The translations under genes were made by a program, and so were the position numbers. Under the pieces are notes generated by a model. The model made no database searches, was not told the DNA's origin, and saw nothing but the letters and a program-made list of their open reading frames with translations. DNA of 64,000 nucleotides from Geomonas subterranea (GTDB lineage Bacteria; Desulfobacterota; Desulfuromonadia; Geobacterales; Geobacteraceae), in NCBI RefSeq assembly GCF_019063845.1, contig NZ_CP077683.1, positions 4,146,501 to 4,210,500 of the forward strand. The letters are read 5' to 3'. This document shows, in pieces, positions 40,327 through 61,681 of this stretch. Each line of letters starts with the position of its first letter. Positions within the stretch are counted from its first letter, which is position 1.

Positions 40327-40430
40327 CGGCGATGAGGGGGTGAAATTCATCAGTTACTCGCCGTAGGGCAGGATGCCCGATAGTGAAGAAGACAGCATCG
40401 GCACGGTTTTCAACCCGGCAAGAATGCCGG
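40327..40430 (+). promoter_or_regulatory. Structured 5' leader of the flagellin mRNA
   Basis: Three hairpins can form: CGGCGA (40327) with TCGCCG (40358-40363); GGGCA (40366) with TGCCC (40374-40378); and CCGGC (40415-40419) with GCCGG (40426-40430). They lie just before the AAGGAGA ribosome binding site. In Caulobacter, FlbT acts on the flagellin leader RNA, and flbT is encoded 1.7 kb downstream, so post-transcriptional control is plausible. Confidence 0.45.
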
Positions 40431-40456
40431 CAAACACCCAGAAAAGGAGAAGTACC

Positions 40457-41275
40457 ATGGCAACTAGCGACATCTCTCTCACCGCAGGCATGAGGACCAA
40501 CCTTCTCAACCTCCAATCGACCAGCAAGCTCCTGAACAGGACCCAGGAAAGGCTCTCTTCCGGCAAGCAGGTCAACAGCGCTCTGGACAACCCGACCAAC
40601 TACTTCGCAGCACAGAACGCCAACCAGCGCGCCAGCGACCTCGCCGACCGTAAGGACGGCATGGCCGAGGCGGTTCAGACGGTTTCGGCTACCAATGCAG
40701 GTATCACCGCCATCACCGGCCTGATCAACGCAGCAAAAGGTATCGCGCAATCCGCCCTTTCCACCAGCGACACCGGCACCAGGTCGAAACTGGCCACCCA
40801 GTACGACACCATTCGTAGCCAGATCGACAACATCTCCTCTGACTCCGGTTACCGTGGTCTGAACCTGCTGAGCTCCACCAACACCCTGACCGTAAACTTC
40901 AACGAAGATGCGAGCTCCAGCCTCAACGTCGTCGGCTTCCTCGGCAACGCAAGCGGCCTGAGCCTCAGCGGCGCCAGCGGCAGCTGGGCTACCAACTCCG
41001 ACATCACCACCGACACGGCGAAGATGGATACGGCGATCTCGACCCTCAGGTCGAACACCCAGACCCTGGCGGCGAACCTGAACATCATCACCACCCGTCA
41101 GAACTTCACCGACTCCATGATCAACACGCTGCAGACCGGTGCTGACAACCTGACCCTGGCCGACATGAACCAGGAAGGTGCCAACATGCTGATGCTGCAG
41201 ACCCGTCAGAGCTTGGGTACCACCTCGCTCTCGATGTCTTCGCAGGCAGCCCAGGCAGTACTCAGACTGTTCTAA
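40457..41275 (+). CDS. Flagellin, alphaproteobacterial type
   Basis: Filament subunit of 272 residues. The N-terminal D0/D1 part is LTAGMRTNLLNLQSTSKLLN then RTQERLSSGKQVNSALDNPT; the C-terminal part is ADMNQEGANMLMLQTRQSLG then SLSMSSQAAQAVLRLF. The middle is short and rich in Ser and Thr (for example SLSGASGSWATNSD), so it offers O-glycosylation sites. The NYFAAQNANQRASDLADRKD type of D1 resembles flagellins of Magnetospirillum or Azospirillum more than enteric FliC. ATG 40457 has an AAGGAGA site. It lies between the glycosyltransferases and flbT-flaF. Confidence 0.94.
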   Translation: MATSDISLTAGMRTNLLNLQSTSKLLNRTQERLSSGKQVNSALDNPTNYFAAQNANQRASDLADRKDGMAEAVQTVSATNAGITAITGLINAAKGIAQSALSTSDTGTRSKLATQYDTIRSQIDNISSDSGYRGLNLLSSTNTLTVNFNEDASSSLNVVGFLGNASGLSLSGASGSWATNSDITTDTAKMDTAISTLRSNTQTLAANLNIITTRQNFTDSMINTLQTGADNLTLADMNQEGANMLMLQTRQSLGTTSLSMSSQAAQAVLRLF

Positions 41276-44870: not shown

Positions 44871-47800
44871 TCAGCTCCGGTACAGGGTGAGCTGGCGCAG
44901 GTAGTCGAGCCGGGTGCCGAAGAGCCGGCAGGTCCCGGGCGTCCAGCGCCTCATCTGCGCCACGGCCAGCGACACGTTGGAGAGGCCGTTGCCCAGGAAG
45001 CGGTCGCAGCGCGCGGCGAGGAGGGTGTCGATGAGCACCTCTTCCCCCAGTGCCCGCCGGCTCGCCTGCTTCTGGTAGTGCACCCCCTGCACGTTCGCGG
45101 TGCGGGTTGAGACGGTGTAGACGAGCCGGCTGCCGAAGCGTTCCCGGTAGCGGGCCAGGATCCGGTCGTCGTCGGTGCTCAGGAAGATGCGGGCTTGCGG
45201 CGTCTCGCGCAAAAGCCGCTCCAACTCCGGGAGGTAGAGGGCGTTCAGCCTGGCGAGCCCCGGGTCCTCCCCCACCTTGTCCCCCCCCCGCACGTGCAGC
45301 CCGACGACCGGCGCGCCCGCCAGCTGCTGGCGGTAAAACGCCTCCACCCGCTCCAGGATGCGGGGCTGCACCTTCAGGTAGCGGTCGAACAGGTAGAGGT
45401 AGATCTCCTCCGTGGAGCGTCCGTGCAGCGGGTGACCGGCGGGGATCCAGGGGGCGAGGTCGTTGACCGCGTAATGGAAGTCGCTCACCACGACCTCCTC
45501 GTTGCGTTCCAGGTTCCAGAGCGCGGAGCAGCGGGACCAGGGACCGTCGAACTTGGCCAGGTTCTCGTGGCGCACGTTGTCGCGCTGCCACTTGGGGGGG
45601 TAGAAGCTGCGCCGGCGCGAGATCACGTCGTTGATGGTGACCTGCGAGACCGGCTCGAAGAAGTTGTTGAAGGCGTTCTCCAGCGGATCGTCGCTGAAAA
45701 GGGAATTGGTGCCCCAATGCACCACCGGCGAGCGCCCGGTCATCTCGGCCGCGAGGAGCTGCCCCAGCACGTGGTTCACGTCGCTCCAGAAGCCGTAGCC
45801 CCAGGCCTTGATGAGCAGCAGACGCTCACCCTGTGGCCGCTGCGGTGGAAGCTCGGCCGCCTGTTGTGCCTTCACCAGGAGGATGCGGGTGGCGCGCGAG
45901 TCGTCCCCCTGTTCCAGGGCGCGGGAGAGCGCGGCCGCCGCGGCGCCCGGCTGTCCGATGGCCAGGGCCACCGCGCCGAGGGTACGGCTCACGCGGGGAC
46001 TCTGGTAGCCGCGGTCCCCGAGGTAGCGGCAGATCAGGTCGGCGGGGGTGACGAACCCCGCGCTGCCGAGAAGCTCGGCGCACTCGGCCAGGGTTTCGCT
46101 GGCGATCCCCTCGGCGGGGGATTCCTCTTCCCGTCCCTCCTCGCGCGTCAGGGCGCGCGCCTGGTCGGTGGCGGTCTGGGCGTTCAGGGTGTCCTGGATC
46201 TCGGTGAGGGTCGACTTGTCGCCCGCGCGCAGCGGCTCGAGGAAGCGCCGCAGAGCGGCGTCGAGCCTCCCCTCGCGCAACAGGTCGAGCCCCTCCTGTT
46301 TCGGGTCCGCTGCGGGAGGGACGTGGCGGCGGCACCATCTCCCCCAGGCGGCCAGCAGTTCCTGTTCCAGTCCCCTGGTGAAGCCGGCGCCGTCGGTGAG
46401 CGAGGCGGCGGCCATGGTGGCGCGCAGCGTCTCCCTGAGTCCACGCAGCCGGTGCCGGTCCAGCGCCAGGGCGTGGGCGATCTGCACGAAGCTGCGACCG
46501 TCGTGGGCGACGAGGGCGTCCAGCCCGACGCTGTGCAGAAGGGTCGCGCCGACGCGGGAGCGATGCGTGGAGCCGGCGAGCGTCACCACCGGGACCCCCA
46601 TCCAGAGCGCCTCGCAGGTGGTGGTGGTGCCGTTGTAGGGGAAGGTGTCCAGGGCGATATCGACCCTGCCGTAGAGCGCGAGGTGATCCCGGTAGGACGG
46701 GGTGTTGCCGATGAGTTCCAGCCGTTCGCTGTCGATCCCGGCCGCGGTGAAGGCGTCGAGGAAGCGCTGCCGCCCCTGCGGGCAGGCGAGCGAGTATCCC
46801 TTGAGCAGGAGCCGTGAGCCGGGGACCGCGCGCAGCACGTCGCCCCACATGGCCAGGGTCTCGCCGGTGATCTTCGCCGGGTTGTTGAACGAGCCGAAGG
46901 TGATCCCCCCGGAGGCGAGGCAGGGGAGCGGTGCGACGGCCGGGGCATCCCCGGGGGGCGCGAAGCAGGAGAAGGTGCCCGGGAGCCTGATCAGCTCCTC
47001 GCTGTGGTAGCGCTCGGTCTCGCCGGGAGGATCGCAGATGGCGTCGCTGATGCGGTAGTCGATGCCGGTGAGCCCGGTGCTGAAGGGATAGCCGATCCAG
47101 GTGACCTGCACCGGCGCCGGCTTGCGGGCGAAGAGCGGCAGGCGGTTCCCCGCGGAGTGGCCGGAAAGGTCGACCAGGATGTCGATGCCGTCCTCGCGCA
47201 GCAGCTCTTCCGCCTGGTCGTCGGGGAGCCCGGCGATGTTGACGAAACGGTCGCACCGCTCGGCGAGCTCCGAGCTCTTCCCGTCCGGGACCGCGACGTT
47301 GGAATAGCACAGGACCCGGAAGCGGCTCCGGTCGTGGTGGGAGAGGACCGGGGCGATGAAGCGGGCGACGGCGTGCTCCCGGAAGTCGGCGGAAACGTAG
47401 CCGATGGTGAGGACCCGGTCCGGGTCGGGGACGTTGGCGTGGGGCTTCACCGCGCGGCGCTGCGAGGCGCCGAAGGCGGCGTGCTCGGCGAAGACGGTCT
47501 CTTCCGCGACGTGGGTGCCGTAGAGGAGGGCGAAGAGGAGCGAGCTCTGCGCCTCCAGGTAATCGGGCTTGAGCCGGAGCGCCTCGCGGTAATGGGCGAT
47601 GGCCTCCTCGTGGCGCCCCTGCGACTTGAGCGCGTTGGCCAGGTTGTGGTGCGCCTCGGGGTAGTCGGGGCGGAGCCTCAGCGCCTGGCGCAGCGACTCG
47701 ATGGCGGCGGCGCCGTTGCCGAAGCGCTCGTAGAGGATGGCGAGGTTGCTGTGCGGTTCCGGGTAGCGGGGATCGAGGCGGATCGCCTCCTGGAAACTCG

Positions 47801-48188
47801 CCTGCGCCTCTTCGCCGCGCCCGAGCGCGCTCAGGGCGAGCCCCAGGTTGTTGCGGTATCCGGCGTGGTCGGGCGCCAGGCGGCAGGCCTCTTGGAGTTC
47901 GCCCGCCGCCTCCTCCATGCGCCCCACCCGCGCCAGCGCGAAACCGAGGTTGCCGTGCGCCTCGCTCCACTGCGGGACGAGCTGCGCCGCCCGCTCGAAG
48001 TGGGGGAGCGCCTCGCCGGGACCGCAGAGCCGCTCCAGGGTGCAGCCCAGGTTGAAGCTGGCCTGGGCGAAATAGGGATCGAGCTGCAGCACGCGCCGGT
48101 AGCGCTCGGCGGCGCGGGAAAGGTCGCCGGAGGCGAACAGGGCGTTGGCCGCCGCGAAGAGCTCCTTCAGACTCTGTGACTCGGTCAT
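44871..48188 (-). CDS. TPR O-GlcNAc-transferase-like (GT41) domain fused to a fucosyltransferase-like (GT23/NodZ-type) domain
   Basis: 1105 residues. TPRs (about 1-240) select a protein. The GT41 domain (about 255-640) has IGYVSADFREHAVARFIAPV, LREDGIDILVDLSGHSAGNR and DIALDTFPYNGTTTTCEALW. A linker precedes the C-terminal domain (about 775-1105) with KAWGYGFWSDVNHVLGQL and the motif VGLHVRGGDKVGED near residue 960, the HxRxGDK signature of alpha-1,6-fucosyltransferases, and RFLGNGLSNVSLAVAQMR. I infer that the first domain adds a sugar and the second extends it. Neighbours are other glycosyltransferases; it overlaps the gene upstream by four bases. Confidence 0.82.
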   Translation of the reverse strand: MTESQSLKELFAAANALFASGDLSRAAERYRRVLQLDPYFAQASFNLGCTLERLCGPGEALPHFERAAQLVPQWSEAHGNLGFALARVGRMEEAAGELQEACRLAPDHAGYRNNLGLALSALGRGEEAQASFQEAIRLDPRYPEPHSNLAILYERFGNGAAAIESLRQALRLRPDYPEAHHNLANALKSQGRHEEAIAHYREALRLKPDYLEAQSSLLFALLYGTHVAEETVFAEHAAFGASQRRAVKPHANVPDPDRVLTIGYVSADFREHAVARFIAPVLSHHDRSRFRVLCYSNVAVPDGKSSELAERCDRFVNIAGLPDDQAEELLREDGIDILVDLSGHSAGNRLPLFARKPAPVQVTWIGYPFSTGLTGIDYRISDAICDPPGETERYHSEELIRLPGTFSCFAPPGDAPAVAPLPCLASGGITFGSFNNPAKITGETLAMWGDVLRAVPGSRLLLKGYSLACPQGRQRFLDAFTAAGIDSERLELIGNTPSYRDHLALYGRVDIALDTFPYNGTTTTCEALWMGVPVVTLAGSTHRSRVGATLLHSVGLDALVAHDGRSFVQIAHALALDRHRLRGLRETLRATMAAASLTDGAGFTRGLEQELLAAWGRWCRRHVPPAADPKQEGLDLLREGRLDAALRRFLEPLRAGDKSTLTEIQDTLNAQTATDQARALTREEGREEESPAEGIASETLAECAELLGSAGFVTPADLICRYLGDRGYQSPRVSRTLGAVALAIGQPGAAAAALSRALEQGDDSRATRILLVKAQQAAELPPQRPQGERLLLIKAWGYGFWSDVNHVLGQLLAAEMTGRSPVVHWGTNSLFSDDPLENAFNNFFEPVSQVTINDVISRRRSFYPPKWQRDNVRHENLAKFDGPWSRCSALWNLERNEEVVVSDFHYAVNDLAPWIPAGHPLHGRSTEEIYLYLFDRYLKVQPRILERVEAFYRQQLAGAPVVGLHVRGGDKVGEDPGLARLNALYLPELERLLRETPQARIFLSTDDDRILARYRERFGSRLVYTVSTRTANVQGVHYQKQASRRALGEEVLIDTLLAARCDRFLGNGLSNVSLAVAQMRRWTPGTCRLFGTRLDYLRQLTLYRS

Positions 48189-51100
48189 GGCCGTCCCCCC
48201 GCCTGGAGCCGCGCCGCCAGGTCGGCAAGAGGGGCGGCCAAATGCTGCAAGCCGCCTCGCTGCAATCCGCCCGCGTATTCGTTCAGGAAATCGCCGCAGT
48301 CAAAGCCCTGTGCCGCCAGGCGCGCCACCTCGGCCTCCCCCCCGGCGCGGTCCCCTTGGAGCAGCAGGCAGACCGCGCAGAGCGAGCGGGCCGCCGGGTA
48401 GTCGGGCCACTTCTGCAGCATGGCCCGGCAGCGCGCGAGCGCCGCCGAGGTCTGCCCCAGGTAGAGCTCGCACTTGGCCAGGTTGAAGGTGGCCTCCTTG
48501 AGTTCCGGGGCGAGCTCGACCCCCCTCGCGGCGTGGGCCTGCGCCTGCGGGTAATCCCCCGAGCACAAGTACAGGTAGCCCAGGTTGAAGTAGGCCTCGG
48601 CATGGTCGGGCTTGACCCGGAGCAGCCGCTGCCAGAGTTGTTCCGCCTCCCCGGTGAGCCCGAGTTCCGTGGCCTGGCGCGCGAGTTCCGCCAGCGCCTC
48701 GTGGCTGGTGCCGGTCTCCTCGAGCTTCTGCAGCCCCAGCCGATAGTACAGCTCCTGCTTGGCGCGGTTTCCCGCCTGGTCCAGCTTGCCGTAGTGGTGC
48801 ACCGGCACGTCGCAGGCGTGGATCGGGATCTCCTCACGGAGCAGGGAGAGCTCCAAAAGCTCGTGCACCGCCCCCTCGAAGCGCAGCGCCGGGAGGTTCG
48901 GGAACAGGCGCACCTTGTCGCTGCCGGTCCAGCCGCGCCCCCGCTCCTGTTCCGGGTACTCGCCGCCGTTGGCGACCCAGCCGCGCCGGGCCAGTTCTTC
49001 GGTGTAGTTCCTGGTGGTGAAGGAGTAGGCGATGCGCCCACCCTTGCGGGCCAGGTCGGCGAGCGGGCCGAGGTCGGTGGGGGCCAGCACCTCGTCGGCG
49101 TCCAGCACCAGGATCCAGTCCCCTGCCGCCTGGGCCAGCGAGAAGTTCCTGGCATCCGCGAAGCTCCCGGTCCAGGGGAACTCGAACAGCCGGGCCCCGA
49201 AGATGCGGGCGATGTCGCGGGTCCGATCAGTGGAGCCGGTGTCCACCACGACCAGCTCGTCGGCCAGGCCGCGCAGCGAATCGAGCGCGGCGGCAAGGTC
49301 GTGCGCCTCGTCCTTGACGATCATGCAGAGCGAGACGCTCCCGGTGCCTTTCACGGCGGGGGACGGGGCGCCGGCGAGCCCCCGGATCTGCAGGGCGGCG
49401 TCGATGCCGGAGTCGTCGAGCCCGAAGCGGGCGGCGGCGCGCTCGATCTCCCGGATCGCCTCGCCGTAGCGGGCGCTCCTGATCAGGAGTTCGATGAGGC
49501 CGTAGCAGAGTCCCTTGTGCTCCGGGTAGAGGGCGATGGCGTCGCGCAGGCGCTCCTCTTCGCGCGGCAGGAGGTCGAGCGCGGTGGCGAATTCGTGGTA
49601 GCGGCCGAGCGAGGCGATCTGCAGCGGGTCGAGGAGGAAGGCCCGCTCGGCGAGTTGCAGCCCCTGTTTTCTTTCGCCCCGCTCCCAGACCATAGCCGCC
49701 AGGGCACAGTAGGCCCGGGCGCAGCCGGGATCGGCCACCAGGACGCGGCGCAGGAGATCCTCGGCCCGGTCCCGCTCGCCCGCCTGCAGCGCCAGCACCC
49801 CTTGCTGCTCGAGGAGTTCGGGCGCCTGGTCATCAAGTGCGGCGGCCCGCTCCAGCTCGGAGAGCGCCAGGTCGCGCTCCCCGGCGGCCTCGTGGCAGCG
49901 CGCCCGCAACAGGTGCGTCGCCTGCGCCTCTCCCGGCGGGACGTGGGTGAGCACCTCCAGCGCCTCGCGGGTCTGCCCCGCCTCGGAAAGCACCCGGGCC
50001 AGGGCGAGGTAGGGGGCGGGGTCACCGTCGGCCAGGTGCACCCCCTGTTCAATCATGAGGTCCACCGCCTGCTTGAGCCTCCCGGCGCGGGCCAGCCGGG
50101 TCCCCTCGACCGCCGCCCGGTGCCTGAACAGACGCGCGGCCAGCTCCGGCGCCAGGGCCCCCGGCTCCCACTTCCGCTCCAGGAGCGGTCGCTCCCGGCG
50201 CAGTAGGAAATCGTCGTCGGGGCTGCCGTAGCGGTGCACGAAGACGTCACCGGCGACGATGCAGCCGTACCCCTTGAGCGCCGCGCGCAGCGAATAATCC
50301 TCGCCCCAGGCGTCCGAGGCGAAGCTGCCGTCCGGCTCGCCGACCTCGTCCAAAAGCTCGCGCGAGAACAGCAGGCAAAAGCCCGCCAGGCGCGGCACGG
50401 CGATGCGGCGGCCGTAGTGGTCCCCGGCGAAGGTCTCGGCGCGGCTCTCCAGCCCGGCGAGGTTCCGGTAGTCGCAGGCCACCTTCCCCTGGAGCCCGGG
50501 CGCCCGGTTGGTCATGGGGCCGCACAGGCCGGCCTTTTGCTCCCGGGCGAGTGTGTCCAGCATCCGCGCCAGCCACCCCCGGGTCACCACCACGTCCCCC
50601 TGCATGAGGACCAGCTCCCTCCCGACCGCCTCGCGCAGGCCGGCGCCGAAGCCGGCCGCGGGGGAGCGCCCGCCGCAGTCGATGAGGAGGTGGCCGCTGT
50701 GCCCGGTGCAGAACTCCTGCAGTTCAGCGAGCGCGGCGTCGTCGCCGCCTCGGAACACCAGGATCACCTCGTGCGGCTCCGGGGTATGGCGCTCGATGCT
50801 CTCCAGGGACTCGCGGGTGCAGGCGGCGTTGTCGCCGGCCGCCACCACGATCGAGGTGAGCGGGTGCACCTTGGGGCGGAGCTCCCGCTCCAGGAAGGCG
50901 ATGTTCTCGCGGGCGGGCGCGCTGTCCGGGTTGATCTCCAGGGCGCGGCGGTAGTGCGGCAGGGCCGCCTGGTAGCGCTCCATGAGTATGAGGATCATCC
51001 CCGCGCAGAGGTGGGCCTCCAGGTCGTCCGGGTTCGCCGCCACGAACGCGGTCTGGTGCTGCAGCGCCTGGTAGAGCTCGCTTTTCAGGAAGGAAAGGAG

Positions 51101-52069
51101 GGCGTCCCGGTAGGTCTCGTTGCCGGGGTCGATGATGGCGGCCTTTTCGAAGTACTTCTTGGCGTAGCCGATCTCCCCCTTCTTGTAGAAGATGCGGGCC
51201 AGTTCCAGGTGGAAGCGGGGCGCGCGCGGGTGCAACTCGCTGAAGCGCTCCAACTCCGGGAGTATGGCTCCCTCCCCGGCCTCCAGCAGCGCCGAGAGGG
51301 TCTGGAACTGCTGCCACTCGTGGGGCTCCAGTTCCATCGGCGGGGGGGCGAGCGGTGCGAAGCGGGGGCGGTATTCCTTCTGCACCTCCAGGTACTCCAA
51401 GGTGGGGAGATCCCCCTTGCGGGACACGGTCTCCTCGGAAAGCCAGTAGAGCCCGAGGAACTGCGGGACGTGGACGAAGTCGCGCCTGAGCGCCGCGCGC
51501 AGCCACAGTTCGTAATCGGCGGCGCTCTTGAAACGCTCGTCGAAGTAGCCGATGTCGTCGTGCAGCGCTTTTCTCCAGAGCGGGAAGGGGCCGACGCAGC
51601 AGAGCTCCAGGAGGTTCAGCCGGTTGAATTCGGGCCAGTCGCGAAAGCCGAAGGACTCGTGCCGCTCGAAGGTGGCGTTCTCCTGTTTGGTGATGCGCAT
51701 GTCCGGGTAGGCGAGCACGCACTCCGGGCGCTCCCGCAAGGCGCGCACCAGGATCTCGTAGGCGTCGTGCCTCAACCGGTCGTCCGTGTTGGCGTTGGTG
51801 ACGAACTCGCCGGTCGCCATGCGGATGCCGCGGTTCCAGGCCTGGTAGACGGTCTCGCGCTTCCCGGTCCGCAGGTACCGGATGTTGTCGTAGCGGGCCT
51901 GGAACTCCGCCACGATGGCGCCCTCGTTTCCCGGCGAGGCGGAGTCGATGACGATGATCTCCAGCTCGGGGGCGATGGTCTGCGCCTCCAGGTCCTCGAG
52001 CTTGCCGCGCAAAAAGCGCTCGGAGTCGTAGGTGGAGACGATGGCGGAAACCAGGTATTTCTTCGACAT
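48185..52069 (-). CDS. Three-domain GT2 glycosyltransferase with TPR repeats
   Basis: 1294 residues. GT2 domain 1, residues 1-230 (SAIVSTYDSERFLRGKLED, IIVIDSASPGNEG, TNANTDDRLRHDAY). TPRs to about 400. GT2 domain 2, about 403-640 (TSIVVAAGDNAACTRESLES; its Asp-x-Asp site is less clear). TPRs about 650-890. GT2 domain 3, about 908-1110 (SLCMIVKDEAHDLAAALDSL, VVVDTGSTDRTRDIARIFGA, DWILVLDADEVLAPTDLG). Then more TPRs to the C-terminus. The start at 52069 (MSKKYLVSAIVSTYD) is chosen because it begins the first GT2 fold; a longer in-frame extension lies inside the upstream gene. It could build a three-sugar chain or act in turn on several acceptors. Confidence 0.85.
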   Translation of the reverse strand: MSKKYLVSAIVSTYDSERFLRGKLEDLEAQTIAPELEIIVIDSASPGNEGAIVAEFQARYDNIRYLRTGKRETVYQAWNRGIRMATGEFVTNANTDDRLRHDAYEILVRALRERPECVLAYPDMRITKQENATFERHESFGFRDWPEFNRLNLLELCCVGPFPLWRKALHDDIGYFDERFKSAADYELWLRAALRRDFVHVPQFLGLYWLSEETVSRKGDLPTLEYLEVQKEYRPRFAPLAPPPMELEPHEWQQFQTLSALLEAGEGAILPELERFSELHPRAPRFHLELARIFYKKGEIGYAKKYFEKAAIIDPGNETYRDALLSFLKSELYQALQHQTAFVAANPDDLEAHLCAGMILILMERYQAALPHYRRALEINPDSAPARENIAFLERELRPKVHPLTSIVVAAGDNAACTRESLESIERHTPEPHEVILVFRGGDDAALAELQEFCTGHSGHLLIDCGGRSPAAGFGAGLREAVGRELVLMQGDVVVTRGWLARMLDTLAREQKAGLCGPMTNRAPGLQGKVACDYRNLAGLESRAETFAGDHYGRRIAVPRLAGFCLLFSRELLDEVGEPDGSFASDAWGEDYSLRAALKGYGCIVAGDVFVHRYGSPDDDFLLRRERPLLERKWEPGALAPELAARLFRHRAAVEGTRLARAGRLKQAVDLMIEQGVHLADGDPAPYLALARVLSEAGQTREALEVLTHVPPGEAQATHLLRARCHEAAGERDLALSELERAAALDDQAPELLEQQGVLALQAGERDRAEDLLRRVLVADPGCARAYCALAAMVWERGERKQGLQLAERAFLLDPLQIASLGRYHEFATALDLLPREEERLRDAIALYPEHKGLCYGLIELLIRSARYGEAIREIERAAARFGLDDSGIDAALQIRGLAGAPSPAVKGTGSVSLCMIVKDEAHDLAAALDSLRGLADELVVVDTGSTDRTRDIARIFGARLFEFPWTGSFADARNFSLAQAAGDWILVLDADEVLAPTDLGPLADLARKGGRIAYSFTTRNYTEELARRGWVANGGEYPEQERGRGWTGSDKVRLFPNLPALRFEGAVHELLELSLLREEIPIHACDVPVHHYGKLDQAGNRAKQELYYRLGLQKLEETGTSHEALAELARQATELGLTGEAEQLWQRLLRVKPDHAEAYFNLGYLYLCSGDYPQAQAHAARGVELAPELKEATFNLAKCELYLGQTSAALARCRAMLQKWPDYPAARSLCAVCLLLQGDRAGGEAEVARLAAQGFDCGDFLNEYAGGLQRGGLQHLAAPLADLAARLQAGGRP

Positions 52070-52077
52070 GGAGAGAG

Positions 52078-54159
52078 TCACAGGATCACCCGGTCGCCCT
52101 GGATCAGTATGGGGAGCGGCGCCGGCGGGTTGAAGGGCGTCTTCTCGGCGGCGAAAAGCTCGCGCTCGCGGGCGAGCACCCGGTCCGCCTCGGCGGTGTA
52201 GCCCGCCTTGTCCTTGGATTTCTGCAGCGGGTGGTCGCGGAAGCCGGCGAGCATCATGTCGACGGAGAAGAGGCGCGCGCTCCTGAAGAAGCGGGCCCAC
52301 AGTTCCAGGTCGGCGGCCAGCGGCAGGGTCTTGTCGATGCAGGCCCCGCTTCTCTCCCACAGGCCGCGGCGCCAGAACACCCCTTCCTGCTGGATGAACT
52401 CCTGGTCTGCCAGGTACTTGGCCCGGGAGTTGAGGGGGAGGTAGGAGAGGATGTGCTTTTGTCTCCCCTGCTCGTCGAAGCTGTTGGGGCGCCCCATGAG
52501 CCACTCCACCTCGGCGCATTCGGCGAAGATGCGGCCGGCCGCGTCGAAGGCGCCGGGGTGGAACATGTCGTCGGCGTTCAGCCAGGTCATGATCTCGCCG
52601 GTGGCGCGGTTCAGCCCCTCCTCGATGGCGGCGTACTGGCCGGCGTCCTTATGGCTGCGCCAGTAGGCGATGTGCTTCTCGTAGCGCCGGATCACCTCGA
52701 CCGTGTCGTCGCTGGAGCCTCCGTCCAGGATGATCAGCTCCAGGTTCGGGTACCCCTGGGACAGGATCGACTCCAGGCAGTCCTTGAGGAAGTGGCCGTA
52801 GTTGTAGGAGGGGATCACCACGGAGAGGCGCGGCCGGGTGGGTGCGGCGGGGCGCGGCGCCGGGCTCTGCGTCATTTCCTGGAGCTGCTCCCAGCGCTCC
52901 CGGTAGTAGCGCACGTGCTCGCCGCGCACCGGGTAGACCAGGTCGCTCCTGCTGCCGTGCTTCAGGAGTTCCAGCGCCGTCGCGTAGTTGCGGTTCTGGG
53001 CGGCGAAGAAGGAGAGCCAGAAGTAGATGATGCCGTAGTTGCAGTTGAAGCTGTAGGAGACCACCTCGAAGTGCCGGATGAACTCCTGGACCCTGGCCTG
53101 CGGCAGCGCCGCGATGCGGCTGTCGGCGGCGAGGATCGCCTCGCGCCGGGCGGGATCGGCGAGGTCGCCGCGCATGGAGGTGATGAAGTCCTCGAAGGTC
53201 GGCCCTTCCGGCTCCGGCCCCCCCTGCGCCTGCTCCTCCAGGAAGCGGCAGATCTTCCCCACCGTGTCCAGGGTGCGCAGGTCCACGTCGTAGACGATCT
53301 CCATGCCGATGCTGTTCACCGCGAAGGTGTAGGTCTCCACCAGGTTCAGCGAGTCGAGGAGCCCCGAGTCGACCAGCTCCGTTTCCGCGTCGATGTCGAG
53401 CTCGAGCCCCTTGCCGCGCAACAACTCCGCCACGAAGTCGAGGAGCCTGTCTTCCAGCCCGGCGAGCCCCCCTTGCCGTTGGTGCGGCATGTCCAGCGCG
53501 TTCAACAACAGCGAAACGAAGGACTCCGGCTCGTCCGCCGGCTCGAATGGGGGTGTATCGCTTTGGAATTCGAGCGAGATGCCGGTGAGCTGGGCGATGT
53601 CGTCCAGGTAGCAGCGCGCCGCCTGCACGTTCAGGTGGATGCCGTCCTTTTGCAACAGGTGCGGCAGGGGGGTGCCGTCCTCCCCGAGGATGCGGTCCGC
53701 CGGGTCGATGACCGCGACCCCGGCCTGGGCGCACCACTGTTTCATGTGCGAGTTGAAGGTGCGCGCGATCTGAAGTACCTCGTCCGGGGAGACGCCTGGG
53801 AAGGTGAGTTCGTGCGCCGGCTGCGGAAAGACCAGCCAGCCGAACCTGCCCAAGCGGGAGAGTTCGGTGAAGAGCTGCTCGTAGAGCTGCTGCAGCGCCC
53901 TGAGCGCGTTGTTCAGCTGGAATTGCGAGGCGGCGCCGCAGAGGTCGTAGATGTCGTGGATGCCGAGGCTCAGGAACTTCCACTCATCGCGGTGTTCGGC
54001 GAAGAGCTCGCGCACCTTGTGCCCGGCGGGGTGCCCGTTGTAGAAGTCCGGGGCGGTGAGCGCACCGACCCATATGACGCTGACCTGCTCGGCGCCGGCC
54101 AGGGTCACCAGTCCCTGCTGCTTGAAGGTGTTCACGTTGCTGTTGCCGACTACTATCAT
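52078..54159 (-). CDS. SGNH-hydrolase-like / acyl carrier / GT2 glycosyltransferase fusion
   Basis: 693 residues in three parts. Residues 1-205: SGNH/GDSL-like fold with VVGNSNVNTFK at the start, LGIHDIYDLCG and a DGIHLN block near residue 173 that supplies the Asp/His pair. Residues 234-312: acyl carrier domain with a phosphopantetheine serine in ELVDSGLLDSLNLVETYTF (about residue 269). Residues 440-690: GT2 fold, SVVIPSYNYGHFLKDCLESI and MTWLNADDMFHPGAF. The carrier could hold an acyl group loaded by the overlapping AMP ligase, the SGNH part could hand it on, and the GT2 could add the sugar that bears it. Each domain is evident; the joint function is inferred. Confidence 0.82.
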   Translation of the reverse strand: MIVVGNSNVNTFKQQGLVTLAGAEQVSVIWVGALTAPDFYNGHPAGHKVRELFAEHRDEWKFLSLGIHDIYDLCGAASQFQLNNALRALQQLYEQLFTELSRLGRFGWLVFPQPAHELTFPGVSPDEVLQIARTFNSHMKQWCAQAGVAVIDPADRILGEDGTPLPHLLQKDGIHLNVQAARCYLDDIAQLTGISLEFQSDTPPFEPADEPESFVSLLLNALDMPHQRQGGLAGLEDRLLDFVAELLRGKGLELDIDAETELVDSGLLDSLNLVETYTFAVNSIGMEIVYDVDLRTLDTVGKICRFLEEQAQGGPEPEGPTFEDFITSMRGDLADPARREAILAADSRIAALPQARVQEFIRHFEVVSYSFNCNYGIIYFWLSFFAAQNRNYATALELLKHGSRSDLVYPVRGEHVRYYRERWEQLQEMTQSPAPRPAAPTRPRLSVVIPSYNYGHFLKDCLESILSQGYPNLELIILDGGSSDDTVEVIRRYEKHIAYWRSHKDAGQYAAIEEGLNRATGEIMTWLNADDMFHPGAFDAAGRIFAECAEVEWLMGRPNSFDEQGRQKHILSYLPLNSRAKYLADQEFIQQEGVFWRRGLWERSGACIDKTLPLAADLELWARFFRSARLFSVDMMLAGFRDHPLQKSKDKAGYTAEADRVLARERELFAAEKTPFNPPAPLPILIQGDRVIL

Positions 54160-55703
54160 AAAAGGCTGAATCCTTTGTTCAGGTAGAGTTCCTTGTTGCG
54201 GGCCCGGGAGATCTTGCCGCTGGAGGTCTTCACCAGCGTCATGTGCTCGACCACCTCGACCCTCTTGGGGACGGTCCCCACCTCCTCCATGACCGCCTTC
54301 TGCACCGCGATCTTGATCGGCGTCGGGGTGGCATTCGGGACCCGTTCCACCACCACGTACAGTTCCTCGGTCCCCAGCTCGTCGTCCCAGACGCCGAAGC
54401 AGACGGTGCGCCCGGAGTAGACCCCCGGCACCTCGGAGGCGACGTATTCCACGTCCTGGGGATAGATGTTCTTGCCGTGCACGATGAGGATGTCCTTCTT
54501 GCGGCCGGTGATGTAGACCTCGCCATCCTCGTCCAGGAAACCGAGGTCGCCGGTCAGGCAGAATCCGTCGCGCAAGGGGCGCGTCCCGTCCAGGAAACGG
54601 TGGAACAAAAACGGGGAGCGGATGCCCACCTCGCCGTCGCCGCTTTCCATCGGGTCGAAGATGCGCACCTCGACCCCGGGGATCGGTTTGCCGCAGGAGA
54701 GGACGTTGCGGGCCGGGTGCACCCTGGTCGAGTTGCCGCTCCAGGGGAGGGTCTGGGAGACCGCGAAGGTGTTCTCGGCCAGTGCGTAGCAGACGGTGAG
54801 CGACTCCGGCTTGACGGTGGGGAAGCGCTCCGCGAACATGGCGTGGCTCTTGGCGCGCGCCGGCTCGGAGCAGTTGATCCAGAGCCGGACGCTGGAGAGG
54901 TCGCGCACTTTCCCCTTCTGGGCCAGCACCTGGTAGGTGAAGTTGGGGAGGAAGCAGATGGTCGGGCGGCGCTCCTCGACGAGCTGCAGCAACAGGTCGG
55001 GCTGCATGATCCAGTCGAAGGGGTCGATCTGGTAGAAGGGGATCCCGGTCATGAGCGGCATCAGGTAGCAGGCGATCAGTCCCATGTCGTGGTACAGCGG
55101 CAGCCAGGTGGCGATGGCGTCCCCTTCGGTGAGGCGCAGGGTGGCGGCGTAGCTCTTCATGTGCTCAACCACCCCCTCGTGGGTCAGCACCACACCTTTC
55201 TGCATCCCGGTGGAGCCGGAGGAGAACTGCACCAGGGCGTTTTCGTTGGCGCGCGAAAAGTCCTCGTCCGACGGCTCCGCAGCGGAGCCGGGGGTGAAGA
55301 TGGGGAGCGACCCGAACTGCTCGAACAGGTGCTCCCCTTCCTGGTCGGTGAAGACCGCGCCGAAACGGGTGATCTCGTGGATGTGCCCGAGCTTCTTGCC
55401 GTATTCCGCCGGGTTCACCTTGGAGGAGGGGTAGCTGATCTGTGCCGGGAGGTGCCCGGCTTTCATGGCGCCGATGTAGGCGGCCAGAAGGTGTATGTCG
55501 AGCTGCTTCACGAACAGCACGATGCTCTGGTGCGGCAGCGGGGCGAACAGGCCGGCGTAGTGGCAGACCCGGTCCCAGAACTCCCGGCGCGAGAACTCCT
55601 GCCAGGTTCCCTTGACCCGGACGGAGCAGCAGTGCGCGGCGGGGTTGTCCCGGACCAGCTCTTCGATGCAGCCGGGGACGTCAGGGGCGGCGGGGAATTT
55701 CAT
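54156..55703 (-). CDS. Acyl-AMP ligase (adenylate-forming, fatty-acyl-AMP-ligase-like)
   Basis: 515-residue adenylate-forming enzyme. ATP loop FSSGSTGMQKGVVLTHEG near residue 180; WLPLYHDMGLIACYLMP; the hinge region GDLGFLDEDGEVYITGRKKD followed by ILIVHGKNIYPQDVE; and the C-terminal lysine in TSSGKISRARNKELYL. WLPLYHDMGLIA and RKKDILIVHGKNIYPQDVE are seen in fatty-acyl-AMP ligases that load acyl carriers. Its stop overlaps the start of the SGNH/carrier/GT2 gene as ATGA, so the two are probably coupled and the carrier domain is its likely acceptor. Substrate unknown. AAAGGAG precedes the ATG. Confidence 0.88.
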   Translation of the reverse strand: MKFPAAPDVPGCIEELVRDNPAAHCCSVRVKGTWQEFSRREFWDRVCHYAGLFAPLPHQSIVLFVKQLDIHLLAAYIGAMKAGHLPAQISYPSSKVNPAEYGKKLGHIHEITRFGAVFTDQEGEHLFEQFGSLPIFTPGSAAEPSDEDFSRANENALVQFSSGSTGMQKGVVLTHEGVVEHMKSYAATLRLTEGDAIATWLPLYHDMGLIACYLMPLMTGIPFYQIDPFDWIMQPDLLLQLVEERRPTICFLPNFTYQVLAQKGKVRDLSSVRLWINCSEPARAKSHAMFAERFPTVKPESLTVCYALAENTFAVSQTLPWSGNSTRVHPARNVLSCGKPIPGVEVRIFDPMESGDGEVGIRSPFLFHRFLDGTRPLRDGFCLTGDLGFLDEDGEVYITGRKKDILIVHGKNIYPQDVEYVASEVPGVYSGRTVCFGVWDDELGTEELYVVVERVPNATPTPIKIAVQKAVMEEVGTVPKRVEVVEHMTLVKTSSGKISRARNKELYLNKGFSLL

Positions 55704-55875: not shown

Positions 55876-56934
55876 TTACGCCAGCAGCGCTTCCAGGCGG
55901 TTGATGAGCGGCAGCGCGTGGTCGCGGTTGCCCGGGTTGCAGTGGTAGTCCTGACGCGCCCAGATGAGCGCCTCGCGCGGCTGCCCGAGACAGGTGAGGC
56001 AGTGCGCCTTCAACAGCGACAGCCCGTCGATCCTCTGGCTCTGGTTGATGTTGCGCCGCAGCGCCTCGTCGATGATGGCGAGCGCGGCGGCCGCGTTGCC
56101 CGAATCGATGAGCGCCATGGCCCCCTCTAAAAGGGCGCGCTGCTCCAGTCCGGGCCCCTTCGCGGCGCCCTTCGCCGGGGCGGGGACGAACAGTGACTCG
56201 AACTCCACGCGCGGGAAGTATTCCAGGCAGCCCCCCTTGGTGGCGTTGAAGACGTTGTGCCCCCAGCGCCTGGCGTAGTGGGCGAGCCTCTGGTACTGGT
56301 CGCGCAGCCGGTTCATGCACGCCTCGAACTCGAGCCACTCGAACTCCAGGTCGTAGCGCGCCGGCTGGGACTCCGAGTAGAAGTGCTCCTCCTTGTGGTT
56401 GGCGTAGCTCTCCTTGGTGATGGCCAGGAAATCGTGGTCGCAGCCGATGAAGTAAACCGGGTCGCACCCCATGTAGAAGGCGAGCATCAGGCTCGAGAGC
56501 ACCACGTTCTGGGAGTAGGGGGGGACCGGCTGGGTGAAGTCGATCACGTCGTGGTCCAGCCTGGTGTAGTCGAAGTGGTAGAAGTGGGTCTCGATGAGCG
56601 GCCCGTTGTTCAGGTTGCTGTAGTACTGGTAGCCGGCGCTCGGCACGAAGAGCCGGGTATGGATGTTGAGCGATTTCACGTGGTTGATTGCCGGCAGGAA
56701 GGGCTGGTCCGGGCGGTCCCAGCCGGCCGGGTCGGCGAGCACCCAGTAGCCAGGGCGGATCAGGGTGGCCAGCGGGTGGTTGTGGAACCAGCTCGCCACG
56801 ATGGTGACCTCGCCCGCCAGGTGGGAGAGATCCTGGCTCGCCAGCGACGGGCCGTTGCCGATCACGAAGGCGCGTCGCCCGGCGTGGCAGTTTTTCAGTG
56901 GTGCGTTCTTGCTCAGGAGTTCCTGGATGGTCAT
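55876..56934 (-). CDS. DUF115 / Maf-like protein
   Basis: 352-residue protein with the DUF115 (MptE-like) core found in flagellin glycosyltransferases of the Maf family. Visible blocks are RAFVIGNGPSLASQDLSHLA near residue 20 and PVYFIGCDHDFLAI near residue 165. The C-terminal 100 residues look like TPR helices (ALIDSGNAAAALAIIDEALR). Maf proteins transfer nonulosonic acids to flagellin; this copy is shorter and no nonulosonic-acid synthesis genes are in the window, so the donor is unknown. It begins five bases after its upstream neighbour. Confidence 0.75.
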   Translation of the reverse strand: MTIQELLSKNAPLKNCHAGRRAFVIGNGPSLASQDLSHLAGEVTIVASWFHNHPLATLIRPGYWVLADPAGWDRPDQPFLPAINHVKSLNIHTRLFVPSAGYQYYSNLNNGPLIETHFYHFDYTRLDHDVIDFTQPVPPYSQNVVLSSLMLAFYMGCDPVYFIGCDHDFLAITKESYANHKEEHFYSESQPARYDLEFEWLEFEACMNRLRDQYQRLAHYARRWGHNVFNATKGGCLEYFPRVEFESLFVPAPAKGAAKGPGLEQRALLEGAMALIDSGNAAAALAIIDEALRRNINQSQRIDGLSLLKAHCLTCLGQPREALIWARQDYHCNPGNRDHALPLINRLEALLA

Positions 56935-58548: not shown

Positions 58549-59475
58549 TCACATGAACTCGTTGGTGCGCTTGAAGGAGGAGATCCTGATGATGTCGCCG
58601 AGCGCCCCCATCCCCACCATGAGCGAAACGGCGACGCCGAAGATCATGTAGTAGAGCGACAGGGTGGGCATGCGCAGCATCGCGATCACCATGGCCGGGA
58701 TGCAGACGAAGGCCACCATGGCCAGGGCCAGGATGATGAAGAACTTGATCGGGTTGAAGAAGACGATCCCCTGCACGATGAACTGCATGGTCCGGATCGA
58801 GTCGCGCAGGTGCTTCACCTTGGTCTTGCCGTCCCGCTTGGAGTACTGGATCGGGATGAACTTGACGAAGTAGAAGAGCCCCGAGGTCAGGATACTGATG
58901 CTGGTGGTGAAGGAGAAGGTGCCGCACAGAAAGGGCATCAGGTTGATGACGATCTCGCGCTTGAAGAGCCGGAAGCCGCTGTTGGGGTCCTCGATGCGGC
59001 TGTCGTTCAAAAACGACACGATCTTCTTGTAGATGCGGCGGAAGATCCGCTTGGCGAAGCAGTCGATGTCGTCGATGTTGGCCCGGTGCCCCACCACCAT
59101 GTCGAACCCCTTCTCCATCTCGGCCACGAAACGGGGCAGGTCCTCGATGGGGTAGGAGCCGTCGGCGTCGACGATGCCGATCCACTGGTAGTGGGCCCGG
59201 TTCACGCCCGACTTGATGGAGTTGCCGTAGCCGATGTTGAGCGGGTGGTGCACGACGTGGATCCCCGGGATCTCTTCCAGCAGTTCCCCGGTGCCGTCGG
59301 TGGAGCCGTCGTTGACCACGATAAGTTCGCTGGCGATATGCAGCGCCGCCAGTGCCTTCTGGATGCGCTGCACCGTCTCTGCGATGCTCCCCACCTCGTT
59401 GTAGGCCGGAACCACCATGGTGAGTCCCGGCAGGGAGCTGGTCTCCCTCTCCCGTCTGTCTCTGTGTGGTGTCAC
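58549..59475 (-). CDS. Polyprenyl-phosphate-type GT2 glycosyltransferase
   Basis: 308 residues. An N-terminal GT2 domain has MVVPAYNEVGSIAETVQRIQ, VVNDGSTDGTGELLEEIPG and the catalytic Asp block IGIVDADGSYPIEDLPRFV; DSRIEDPNSGFRLFKREI follows. The C-terminus has two hydrophobic helices (FFIILALAMVAFVCIPAMVI and MIFGVAVSLMVGMGALGDII), as in dolichol-phosphate-mannose/ArnC-type enzymes that charge polyprenyl phosphate. It likely supplies the lipid-linked sugar used by the GT-C-like neighbour. Overlaps the next gene upstream by four bases. Confidence 0.85.
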   Translation of the reverse strand: MTPHRDRRERETSSLPGLTMVVPAYNEVGSIAETVQRIQKALAALHIASELIVVNDGSTDGTGELLEEIPGIHVVHHPLNIGYGNSIKSGVNRAHYQWIGIVDADGSYPIEDLPRFVAEMEKGFDMVVGHRANIDDIDCFAKRIFRRIYKKIVSFLNDSRIEDPNSGFRLFKREIVINLMPFLCGTFSFTTSISILTSGLFYFVKFIPIQYSKRDGKTKVKHLRDSIRTMQFIVQGIVFFNPIKFFIILALAMVAFVCIPAMVIAMLRMPTLSLYYMIFGVAVSLMVGMGALGDIIRISSFKRTNEFM

Positions 59476-60935: not shown

Positions 60936-60949
60936 CGGTGCTCCGTTGG

Positions 60950-61681
60950 TCAGCGGCGCCGCGCCGCCACCAGGAGCTGATACCCCCCAAAGGGGAGGGA
61001 GAGCCGGAAGGAGACGTACACGAGCGAAGCGAGAAGCTTCTGTGCCGCGGAGTAGCTGCCGGACTCGAGGAAGGCCGCGCAGGCCCGGTCCGGGTTGAGG
61101 TTGATCAGGTGCTTGTACAGGTTGAAGAACGGGAAGCCCCAGGCCTGGCAGCGGACCACCGTGAGCCCGGCCGCCTCCAGCGCCTCCCGGATCTCGCCGG
61201 GGGAGAAGTGGCGGGTGTGGCCGACGCGCCGGTCGATCTCGAAGAGCGGGCCGCAGGGGACGGTGACGAAGAGCCACTGTCCGGTCATCGCCGCGAGCCT
61301 CGCGATCGCCTCGCGGTGATCGGCGCAGTGTTCGACCACCTCCATGCAGGTGACCACGTCGTAGCGCCCGGGCAGCTCCTCCCGGTTCAGGTCCAGCGTG
61401 GCGAAGTTCATGCCGGGGAGCTGGGCCCGGTTCGCCTCGATGACGGCGGGGGACACGTCTGCTCCAGCAAATTCCGTGCCCTGCAGCTCCCGGCTTGCCT
61501 GGAGCAGGAATTCGCCGTTGCCGCACCCCACGTCGAGGAGGGTGCGGGGGGCGGCCAGCTCCCTGACCCAGGAGAGGATCCGGGTGCGCCGGAAGCGGGG
61601 GGCCGGGGAGTAGCGGATCATGTCGTTCCACTTGTCCCAGGCGGCGTCGTAGAAGGCGGTCAGGTTCTCAGGCTGCGACAT
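60950..61681 (-). CDS. Class I SAM-dependent methyltransferase
   Basis: 243 residues with the Rossmann methyltransferase motif I LLDVGCGNGEFLLQA at about residue 48, the acidic motif II region FAGADVSPAVIEANRAQL, and EVVEHCADHREAIARLA. UbiG/methyltransf_11-like. It begins within the end of asnB (22-base overlap) and is followed by the B12-binding radical SAM gene after 14 bases. It might O- or C-methylate a sugar of the glycan. Confidence 0.85.
   Translation of the reverse strand: MSQPENLTAFYDAAWDKWNDMIRYSPAPRFRRTRILSWVRELAAPRTLLDVGCGNGEFLLQASRELQGTEFAGADVSPAVIEANRAQLPGMNFATLDLNREELPGRYDVVTCMEVVEHCADHREAIARLAAMTGQWLFVTVPCGPLFEIDRRVGHTRHFSPGEIREALEAAGLTVVRCQAWGFPFFNLYKHLINLNPDRACAAFLESGSYSAAQKLLASLVYVSFRLSLPFGGYQLLVAARRR

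Follow-up and report, generated by a model that had tools for sequence, protein, structure and literature searches.

A FAAL-like ligase and a single-chain SGNH-carrier-GT2 protein in a Geomonas flagellin island: a candidate membrane-free acyl-transfer cassette

We analyzed a 64,000-nucleotide stretch of the Geomonas subterranea genome (the window), in which two coupled genes sit in a gene island around a flagellin gene. The host of the pair is a soil bacterium. The two genes and the parts of their products are as follows:

54156..55703, minus strand: FAAL-like adenylate-forming ligase of 515 residues (PF00501, 8.4e-42)
54156..54159, minus strand: ATGA overlap of the ligase stop with the start of the SGNH-protein gene
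52078..54159, minus strand: single-chain protein of 693 residues with SGNH-like, carrier-like, helical and GT2 parts
53560..54159, minus strand: SGNH-like domain, residues 1 to about 200 (PF13472, Foldseek and invariant residues)
53224..53466, minus strand: divergent carrier-like domain, residues about 232-312 (profile methods)
53350-53352, minus strand: codon of Ser270 in the DSL motif
52870..53202, minus strand: helical stretch, residues about 320-430, without a Pfam match
52081..52833, minus strand: GT2 domain, residues about 443-693 (PF00535, 1.5e-25)

Both frames stand as the first-pass annotation had described them, with a ligase overlapping a 693-residue protein by ATGA, and both have GC contents by codon position of the coding type (0.61/0.41/0.92 and 0.65/0.40/0.94). 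The same overlap joins ligase and SGNH gene in all three pairs, including the orthologous pairs G005 and G014. The annotation had further divided the 693-residue protein into SGNH, carrier and GT2 domains. Of these the GT2 and SGNH-like assignments held, and the carrier was recovered by profile methods with Pfam silent.

The nearest solved structure to the ligase is the fatty acyl-adenylate ligase 3pbk (1.9e-43), and its closest relatives by sequence are also FAALs. Since it scores far below the NCBIfam FAAL cut-offs, we label it FAAL-like. Core motifs are present and kept in 3/3 ligases, as is the C-terminal TSSGK lysine K497, which is invariant in the two orthologues (94% and 78% identical). 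FAALs carry a FAAL-specific insertion, and the stretch from YALAE to SCG spans about 24 residues in our ligase versus about 50 in 3pbk; acyl transfer to a carrier rather than to CoA is therefore not assured. A draw of 395 genomes, with three candidates scored per genome, gave relatives of the ligase at 32-42% identity in 15 others, and at four readable loci among these the protein ended with no obvious fused carrier.

For the N-terminal domain of the partner protein, PF13472 gives 31.6 bits in the whole protein, just under its cut-off of 32.9, and 33.6 bits, just over it, when the domain is searched alone. AlphaFold and Foldseek assign an SGNH/GDSL fold. Block I reads GNSN at residues 5-8 and includes Ser7, while block V holds Asp172 and His175, and these three residues are invariant in 4/4 aligned rows. 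The SGNH block III motif is GxND; here it is GIHD at 66-69, with His replacing Asn in 4/4 rows, and for this reason we call the domain SGNH-like. It starts at residue 1 and has no signal peptide or membrane-like segment, the highest 19-residue Kyte-Doolittle mean being 1.45. Its PDB matches in Foldseek are mainly GDSL/SGNH esterases (best E 2.6e-4), and the folds nearest to it belong to hydrolases, sialate O-acetylesterases among them.

The carrier-like domain is the weak part of the assignment, its homology coming from profile methods alone. A Pfam scan of the region gave no match at E 10, a setting at which HMMER filters discard most matches above 0.1, and a PF00550 (PP-binding) search across the organism's own genome gave no match at this domain. 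Matches to NCBIfam carrier models are weak (best 0.0015), and a flavodoxin model ranks higher (0.00041). When a profile built from five members was compared with the PDB, 36 of the 44 matches at E up to 10 were named carrier proteins, which are related to one another and so are not independent; the best of them (0.0052) stood behind two flavodoxins (0.0017). As the PDB alignment gaps at the motif serine and covers only part of the flavodoxin, we treat the flavodoxin matches as probably due to chance. Alignment by hhalign with six carrier domains from the same genome gave a probability of 80%, a P of 1.4e-5 and a score of 32.3, versus a best score of 17.1 in 300 column shuffles. This homology spans the whole carrier domain and puts Ser270, the DSL serine singled out in the first-pass annotation, in register with the phosphopantetheine serine of the carriers. 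The domain-by-domain structure prediction suggested there gave the SGNH/GDSL fold, but left the carrier region at pLDDT <50, both in a 429-residue model and alone; the strands drawn after the serine in the latter model are likewise at pLDDT <50. We take these models as speaking neither for nor against the four-helix fold of a carrier.

These results bear on the alternative that the carrier-like domain is merely structural and that the ligase makes acyl-CoA or acyl-AMP which serves the SGNH-like domain directly or is consumed elsewhere. The silence of Pfam, the low pLDDT and the shortness of the ligase where 3pbk is long would all fit this, as would the loss of the Asp before the serine in 2/5 members (the two relatives outside Geomonas, which have Arg-Ser in place of Asp-Ser). 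However, Ser270 itself is invariant in 5/5 members, the Asp is kept in the 3/5 that have the ligase, and the profile homology runs across the whole domain, and we regard a purely structural role as distinctly unlikely.

The surroundings of the pair include the following genes:

55876..56934, minus strand: MptE-like protein, directly upstream of the ligase (PF01973, 29.1 bits, under the cut-off of 34.6)
48185..52081, minus strand: GT2-TPR protein of about 1298 residues from its likely GTG start
44871..48188, minus strand: TPR-GT41 protein, an island backbone gene used as a tree marker (PF13844, 1e-54)
40373..41275, plus strand: flagellin gene (PF00669, 2.5e-9)

The likely start of the GT2-TPR gene overlaps the stop of the SGNH gene as GTGA, and a longer frame begins at 52519. 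The MptE-like protein is one that we take to be related to the Maf flagellin-modification proteins. In the three Geomonas genomes with the pair, it occupies a slot between the MptE-like gene and the GT2-TPR/GT41 genes, beside flagellar genes. In 12/12 genomes that have the slot, TPR-GT41 comes after GT2; in nine of these, flagellar genes, among them what we presume to be FlaF and FlbT, lie within the examined stretch, the other three stretches ending first. Glycosyltransferases and sugar genes stand beside the flagellin gene in the same order in related genomes. A few kb outside the window are NeuC-, NeuB- and PseF-like genes and an N-acetyl-sugar amidotransferase, which suggests that modified nonulosonic acids are made. 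The locus is thus supported as a flagellin-glycosylation-type island, as had been proposed from the sequence. The earlier remark that no MBOAT is nearby was also borne out, one of the genome's two matches being at 4.643 Mb, about 0.44 Mb from the locus, and the other at 4.897 Mb, about 0.70 Mb away (window at 4.147-4.211 Mb). Among 18 neighbouring proteins scanned, which are part of the island's frames, we recognised no separate acyltransferase and no FabG, LuxC or LuxE. Glycan genes of several kinds are present in the same island.

The ligase was found in 3/58 relatives (E 1e-60); these are also the three genomes in which the SGNH-carrier part was found, or 3/277 of the class (E 1e-10), so that the two occur together in 3/19 Geomonas genomes. 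Geomonas paludis is a carrier of the pair. Two gene trees reject a single clade for the owners of the pair. This occurrence and the tree discordance indicate that the pair acts like a cassette that occupies one fixed slot. On the TPR-GT41 tree G014, with the cassette, and G006, lacking it, are close neighbours. The GT2 domain is distributed differently: nine other genomes have it at 70-89% identity (tblastn), and the cassette was not found in them. It thus appears to be the resident glycosyltransferase domain of the slot and not dedicated to acyl chemistry; the glycosyltransferase fusion reported earlier is real.

Outside Geomonas, two remote relatives keep the SGNH-carrier-helical order, the helical stretch being conserved along with the SGNH-carrier part. 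One of them (L036) is near a flagellin gene, stretches of which are 51-58% identical to the Geomonas flagellin. At L036 the same ATGA joins an MptE-like gene, whose product is 42% identical to the Geomonas protein, straight to the SGNH gene. In G279, from a class represented by one genome, a single protein joins the SGNH-carrier relative to the N-terminal GT2 of a homologue of GT2-TPR, the next gene in Geomonas. In the class of G655 a relative was seen in 1/85 genomes, G655 itself. No SGNH-carrier relative was found in plasmids or phages by tblastn, or in viral contigs by a pattern scan. Within the genus, a weak match in genome G003 (4.2e-4, 25%, one internal stop) was dropped as spurious, and an SGNH-only match in G588 (1.2e-10) belongs to a TPR/glycosyltransferase protein of 2404 residues, for which 25 of the 33 Pfam families include no carrier, and is not counted as a member. 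No close ligase was found in the genome of either relative outside Geomonas, and this, with their Arg-Ser motif, makes the carrier reading weaker for the family as a whole.

Two further alternatives can be weighed at this point. The pair could modify another polymer or a small molecule, its proximity to flagellin being incidental, given that the island's glycan genes are of several kinds. Against this, the slot lies beside flagellar genes in three Geomonas, and L036 keeps MptE-like, GT2-TPR and flagellin neighbours, which leaves this alternative very improbable. The SGNH-like domain could instead be a hydrolase that edits the carrier or de-O-acetylates the flagellin glycan, with the loaded carrier serving another enzyme. 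This has the GDSL esterases and sialate O-acetylesterases among the nearest folds in its favor, along with the nonulosonic-acid-type genes nearby and the two remote relatives, in which SGNH is retained, the carrier motif is changed and a close ligase was not found. It accords poorly with a ligase and an SGNH gene that overlap and occur together in 3/3 Geomonas, as an activation step is hardly sensible for a pure esterase, and with the failure to recognise a separate acyltransferase among the 18 neighbours scanned from part of the island's frames. We consider the hydrolase alternative unlikely, though still one to be taken seriously.

Our best explanation, to which we assign a probability of about 0.5, is that the two genes act as a membrane-free cassette for acyl transfer to the flagellin glycan. 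Specifically, the FAAL-like ligase would activate a carboxylic acid, at a guess a short or hydroxylated one, as acyl-AMP and load the acyl group onto a phosphopantetheine arm at Ser270 of the carrier-like domain. The SGNH-like domain would accept the acyl group on Ser7 and donate it to a sugar at a hydroxyl or amino position; that sugar may be a sugar nucleotide or part of a growing glycan bound to the attached GT2 and the GT2-TPR protein. Transfer to the flagellin-glycan sugar would take place in the cytoplasm, and gain or loss of the ligase would go along with that of the N-terminal SGNH-carrier-helical module, ahead of the resident GT2. Glycosylation of flagellins generally takes place in the cytoplasm and precedes export, and an MBOAT would be unnecessary because the acyl group crosses no membrane as it does in Dlt systems; an SGNH-like domain with no signal or membrane segment would explain the absent MBOAT. 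This explanation is favored by the ligase motifs, the carrier register, the SGNH triad, the overlap in 3/3 pairs, the co-occurrence and the flagellar context, and further by the G279 fusion, the nonulosonic-acid-type genes and the absence of a membrane segment and of a nearby MBOAT, with the route proposed for Pseudomonas syringae (see below) as a functional precedent. It is weakened by the carrier pLDDT <50, the silent Pfam and the flavodoxins that outscore carriers, as well as by the block III His, the hydrolase-like nearest folds, the short ligase stretch and the Arg-Ser relatives, in whose genomes no close ligase was found.

A comparison with known systems shows which features are shared. 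The Dlt system includes DltA, the D-alanine ligase. In sequence, the Geomonas ligase has fatty acyl-AMP ligases as its nearest relatives. As in Dlt, ligase, carrier (by profile) and SGNH partner are encoded together, so that the activation-carry-transfer logic recognised in the first-pass annotation would seem to hold. The parts resemble those of Dlt, but a DltD-like placement does not fit a domain that begins at residue 1 with no membrane segment. Unlike Dlt, whose DltB/C/D/X mechanism has been described (PMC12148441), the Geomonas locus has no MBOAT (DltB) nearby, its SGNH-like part is fused to the carrier and unanchored, and its expected acceptor is the flagellin glycan; with no MBOAT near and no membrane anchor, membership in Dlt was rejected. 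In PatA/PatB and other MBOAT-SGNH acyltransferases the SGNH protein is likewise the final transferase onto the glycan, and these enzymes, as summarized in that source, work outside the membrane, with acyl-tyrosine intermediates as the source (PMC12148441), whereas the Geomonas donor would be a carrier in the same chain.

A functional precedent is the carrier-linked N-(3-hydroxybutyryl) viosamine route for Pseudomonas syringae flagellin, whose VioS/VioR/ACP/VioB/VioT island was assigned this pathway by its authors from homology and mutant mass spectra (PMC3927599). The likeness is that a sugar of the flagellin glycan would, in both proposals, carry an acyl group supplied by way of a carrier. 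In the P. syringae proposal, however, the acyl group is built by a ketoacyl-ACP synthase and a reductase, and the seven genes listed there include no ligase or SGNH protein (PMC3927599). By analogy, the Geomonas acyl group could be joined to a sugar nucleotide, after which the attached GT2 would transfer specifically the acylated sugar as a glycan end cap, for which the location of GT2 in the same chain and the report that VioT accepts only the acylated sugar nucleotide (PMC3927599) can be cited. This variant is a sub-form of the best explanation, with which its odds overlap, so that the likelihoods expressed here do not sum to one; as GT2 is present at 70-89% identity in nine genomes where the cassette was not found, such specificity is improbable and we hold the variant to be unlikely. 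The Campylobacter dimethylglyceric acid route was dropped as a precedent, since 'acyl' and three locus names associated with carrier or ligase genes are absent from PMC3068675.

Flagellin islands of Aeromonas Group II (PMC7874193) and Enterobacteriaceae (PMC4875605) are described as having an AMP-dependent synthetase/CaiC-type ligase, an acyl carrier protein and many glycosyltransferases, which led their authors to suggest a liposugar in the glycan. These are separate genes accompanied by a FabG-type reductase, LuxC and LuxE, and the island descriptions name no SGNH partner, whereas in Geomonas carrier, SGNH-like and GT2 parts form one chain. The earlier view of an undescribed system may hold for the SGNH-carrier-GT2 architecture, of which literature searches, conducted partly by title or abstract start, returned no description, and does not hold for ligase and carrier genes in flagellin islands, which are already published (PMC7874193, PMC4875605), as is the proposed carrier-linked acyl sugar route of P. 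syringae. What is new here is the single chain, the soluble SGNH partner and the cassette behavior.

A broader proposal, which we advance tentatively and at somewhat less than even odds, is one of MBOAT-free cytoplasmic carrier-SGNH glycan acylation, in which one polypeptide serves as carrier, SGNH transacylase and glycosyltransferase, is fed by the ligase, and is exchanged as a cassette before the resident glycosyltransferase, altering the acyl decoration of the flagellum; phages or surface recognition may exert the pressure behind this. For the Aeromonas and enterobacterial islands, the accounts cited explain the ligase and carrier genes solely by a possible liposugar (PMC7874193, PMC4875605). 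With putative activation, carrier, SGNH-like and glycosyltransferase functions in two coupled genes, the Geomonas pair offers a small, cloneable test case. If the proposal is true, SGNH glycan acylation would need no membrane relay when the acceptor is cytoplasmic, and the acyl decoration of flagella would be exchangeable as a cassette.

The host genome of the window is a single 4.99 Mb Geomonas contig, in which the window covers 4146501-4210500, and the two frames that the first-pass annotation had described, an acyl-AMP ligase and an SGNH-carrier-GT2 protein, are both present, with codon GC of the coding type and a real ATGA overlap between them. This confirms the observation itself, while the interpretation placed on it, a Dlt-like logic that yields an acylated sugar, is supported in part only. 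The features concerned are:

54156-55703, minus strand: fatty acyl-AMP ligase-like protein, 515 residues
52078-54159, minus strand: 693-residue protein with the four parts that follow
residues 1 to ~200: SGNH-like domain (Pfam 33.6 bits when searched alone, 31.6 in the whole protein, cut-off 32.9)
residues ~232-312: carrier-like domain, seen by profile methods only
residues ~320-430: stretch that is helical in the AlphaFold model and unnamed in Pfam
residues ~443-693: GT2 domain (Pfam)
48185-52081, minus strand: GT2-TPR protein
44871-48188, minus strand: TPR-GT41 protein
55876-56934, minus strand: MptE-like protein
40373-41275: flagellin gene

The ligase matches PF00501 at 8.4e-42, has the fatty acyl-adenylate ligase 3pbk as its nearest solved relative (1.9e-43), and contains a TSSGK stretch along with hinge, P-loop, YALAE and TGD motifs. 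It shares 94% and 78% identity with two orthologues. Because the segment from YALAE to SCG is ~24 residues long versus ~50 in 3pbk, we do not claim carrier-only specificity for this enzyme. The SGNH-like domain starts at the start codon and lacks any membrane-like segment, and its AlphaFold confidence is mostly 60-89. Foldseek returned mainly GDSL esterases and sialate O-acetylesterases together with some designed scaffolds (best E 2.6e-4). Ser7, Asp172 and His175 are invariant in all four alignment rows, and His replaces Asn in block III.

The proposed carrier domain is upheld by profile homology but not by Pfam, which gave no match, or by AlphaFold, where its pLDDT is <50. Specifically, hhalign against six carrier domains from the same genome gave P 1.4e-5, a probability of 80% and a score of 32.3, compared with a maximum of 17.1 among 300 column shuffles. 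When a five-member profile was searched against the PDB, 36 of the 44 matches were to named carrier proteins of the acyl, peptidyl or aminoacyl type (best E 0.0052), with two flavodoxins ranking above them (0.0017).

The first-pass assignment of the pair to a flagellar glycosylation island is borne out by gene content, which includes flagellin, glycosyltransferases and sugar genes, so the region is a predicted flagellin glycosylation island. The GT2-TPR and TPR-GT41 proteins lie downstream of the pair; upstream are MptE-like and PMT-like proteins (each under its Pfam cut-off), another GT2, a B12 radical SAM protein and an Asn-synthase-like amidotransferase. A few kb outside the window are matches to NeuC and an N-acetyl-sugar amidotransferase above cut-offs, and to NeuB and PseF below them. 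The 719-residue B12 radical SAM frame (59472-61681) looks too long: its first third is overlapped by a 243-residue frame (60950-61681) that agrees in place and length with a separate frame in G. paludis, a methyltransferase by eye. Elsewhere in the genome, a 95-residue carrier-protein frame just ahead of one of the two MBOAT matches (G000:C1:4642382-4643669, L089 region) is possibly part of a separate carrier-MBOAT acylation locus.

At E 1e-60 the ligase was found in three of 58 relatives, and the SGNH-carrier part in the same three of 19 genus genomes (one spurious match left out) and in three of 277 class genomes at 1e-10. A 395-genome draw from the phylum gave three matches, namely this genome, G279 and G588 (SGNH part only), and a scan of an 84,980-species collection, in which short exact patterns reach near relatives only and the window's own record was possibly left out, gave G. 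paludis and L036, a MAG of the Desulfobacteraceae. The L036 protein shows 34% identity along the full SGNH-carrier-helical part and then continues into an unnamed region and TPRs. Its gene comes directly after an MptE-like gene via the same ATGA overlap, with a GT2-TPR gene next and flagellin near. In G279 this module is fused in a single chain with the N-terminal part of the GT2-TPR protein (52% identity to the window GT2-TPR over 216 residues), and the module is therefore functionally tied to that glycosyltransferase. The L036 (10001-12607) and G279 (L062:3-3698) relatives share 46% identity across 744 residues, and both run into an unnamed region ahead of TPRs. Neither genome yielded a close ligase: the best in L036 is 30% identical (5.5e-23), and none of three candidates scored in G279, an 84% complete genome, reached 1e-50. 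The carrier motif is Asp-Ser in the three Geomonas proteins, all with the ligase, and Arg-Ser in these two relatives, both without a close one; Arg-Ser-Val/Met there replaces Asp-Ser-Leu. This pattern, drawn from few data, agrees with a carrier that functions in Geomonas and is questionable outside it.

We compared the island position occupied by the GT2 domain in 12 genomes: this one, ten more Geomonas and G023 from a different genus; the arrangement around the GT2 was resolved in the 11 Geomonas. TPR-GT41 is present in all 12 and GT2-TPR in the frame tables of 11, the G002 table being without it. The GT2 domain is preceded by the SGNH-carrier-helical part in the same chain and by the ligase gene in three genomes, namely this one, G. 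paludis Red736 (G005) and G014. In five others (G002, G003, G004, G012 and G013) it forms the C-terminal end of other proteins, 735 to 2609 residues long, those scanned (G002, G003, G012) carrying GT4, GT2 or GT9 domains; it stands alone in G006 (269 aa) and lies in open frames of 345 residues in G010 and G017. At L044:1699-9528, L045:1993-8901 and L049:9346-16476 of other Geomonas this position is filled by single frames of ~2300-2600 residues, each with the resident GT2 at its end; the one in L044 strings together several glycosyltransferase domains and also has a methyltransferase domain.

A single clade of the three cassette genomes is rejected on both the GT2 tree (p-AU 0.0015; this tree is otherwise weak, with five of nine inner branches open) and the TPR-GT41 tree (p-AU 5e-69). 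G014 pairs with cassette-free G006 on both, and G005 pairs with cassette-free G002 on the TPR-GT41 tree. This discordance and these partners argue that the ligase and the SGNH-carrier-helical part have been gained or lost jointly more than once at one place. The simplest explanation is recombination joining close to the linker that precedes the GT2; repeated loss could also have produced the pattern. Both G005 and G014 carry the cassette, yet the MptE-like protein is 97% identical in the former and only ~49% in the latter, so that this neighbour may be swapped independently.

Related islands are known. Those of Aeromonas Group II encode an AMP-dependent synthetase, 3-oxoacyl-ACP reductase, LuxE and LuxC alongside an acyl carrier protein (PMC7874193), enterobacterial flagellin islands have a similar set (PMC4875605), and a liposugar is suggested in both papers. 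A carrier-linked pathway that places 3-hydroxybutyryl viosamine on flagellin has been proposed for P. syringae on the basis of homology and the mass spectra of mutants (PMC3927599). Literature searches, with most subscription papers outside their reach, found no paper that brings SGNH and an acyl carrier protein together with flagellin glycosylation, none on flagellin glycosylation with an SGNH hydrolase, and none on Geobacter flagellin glycosylation and glycosyltransferases. Judged by title, the papers naming flagellin and glycosyltransferase along with GDSL and acyl carrier protein were only a proteome and a transcriptome study, and those with three out of acyl-AMP ligase, glycan, SGNH and acyl carrier protein looked unrelated; Geomonas with flagellin gave only nitrogen-fixation work by title and abstract start.

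The best reading of the predicted chemistry is load, hold and transfer, in which the ligase would charge Ser270 of the carrier and the acyl group would pass through Ser7 of the SGNH domain to a sugar of the flagellin glycan. The Dlt mechanism uses an MBOAT and shuttle steps (PMC12148441), whereas the route proposed here would run entirely in the cytoplasm and so would need neither. The same GT2 also occurs where the cassette is absent, which makes it more likely that the acyl group is a decoration than that it is the substrate code of this GT2.
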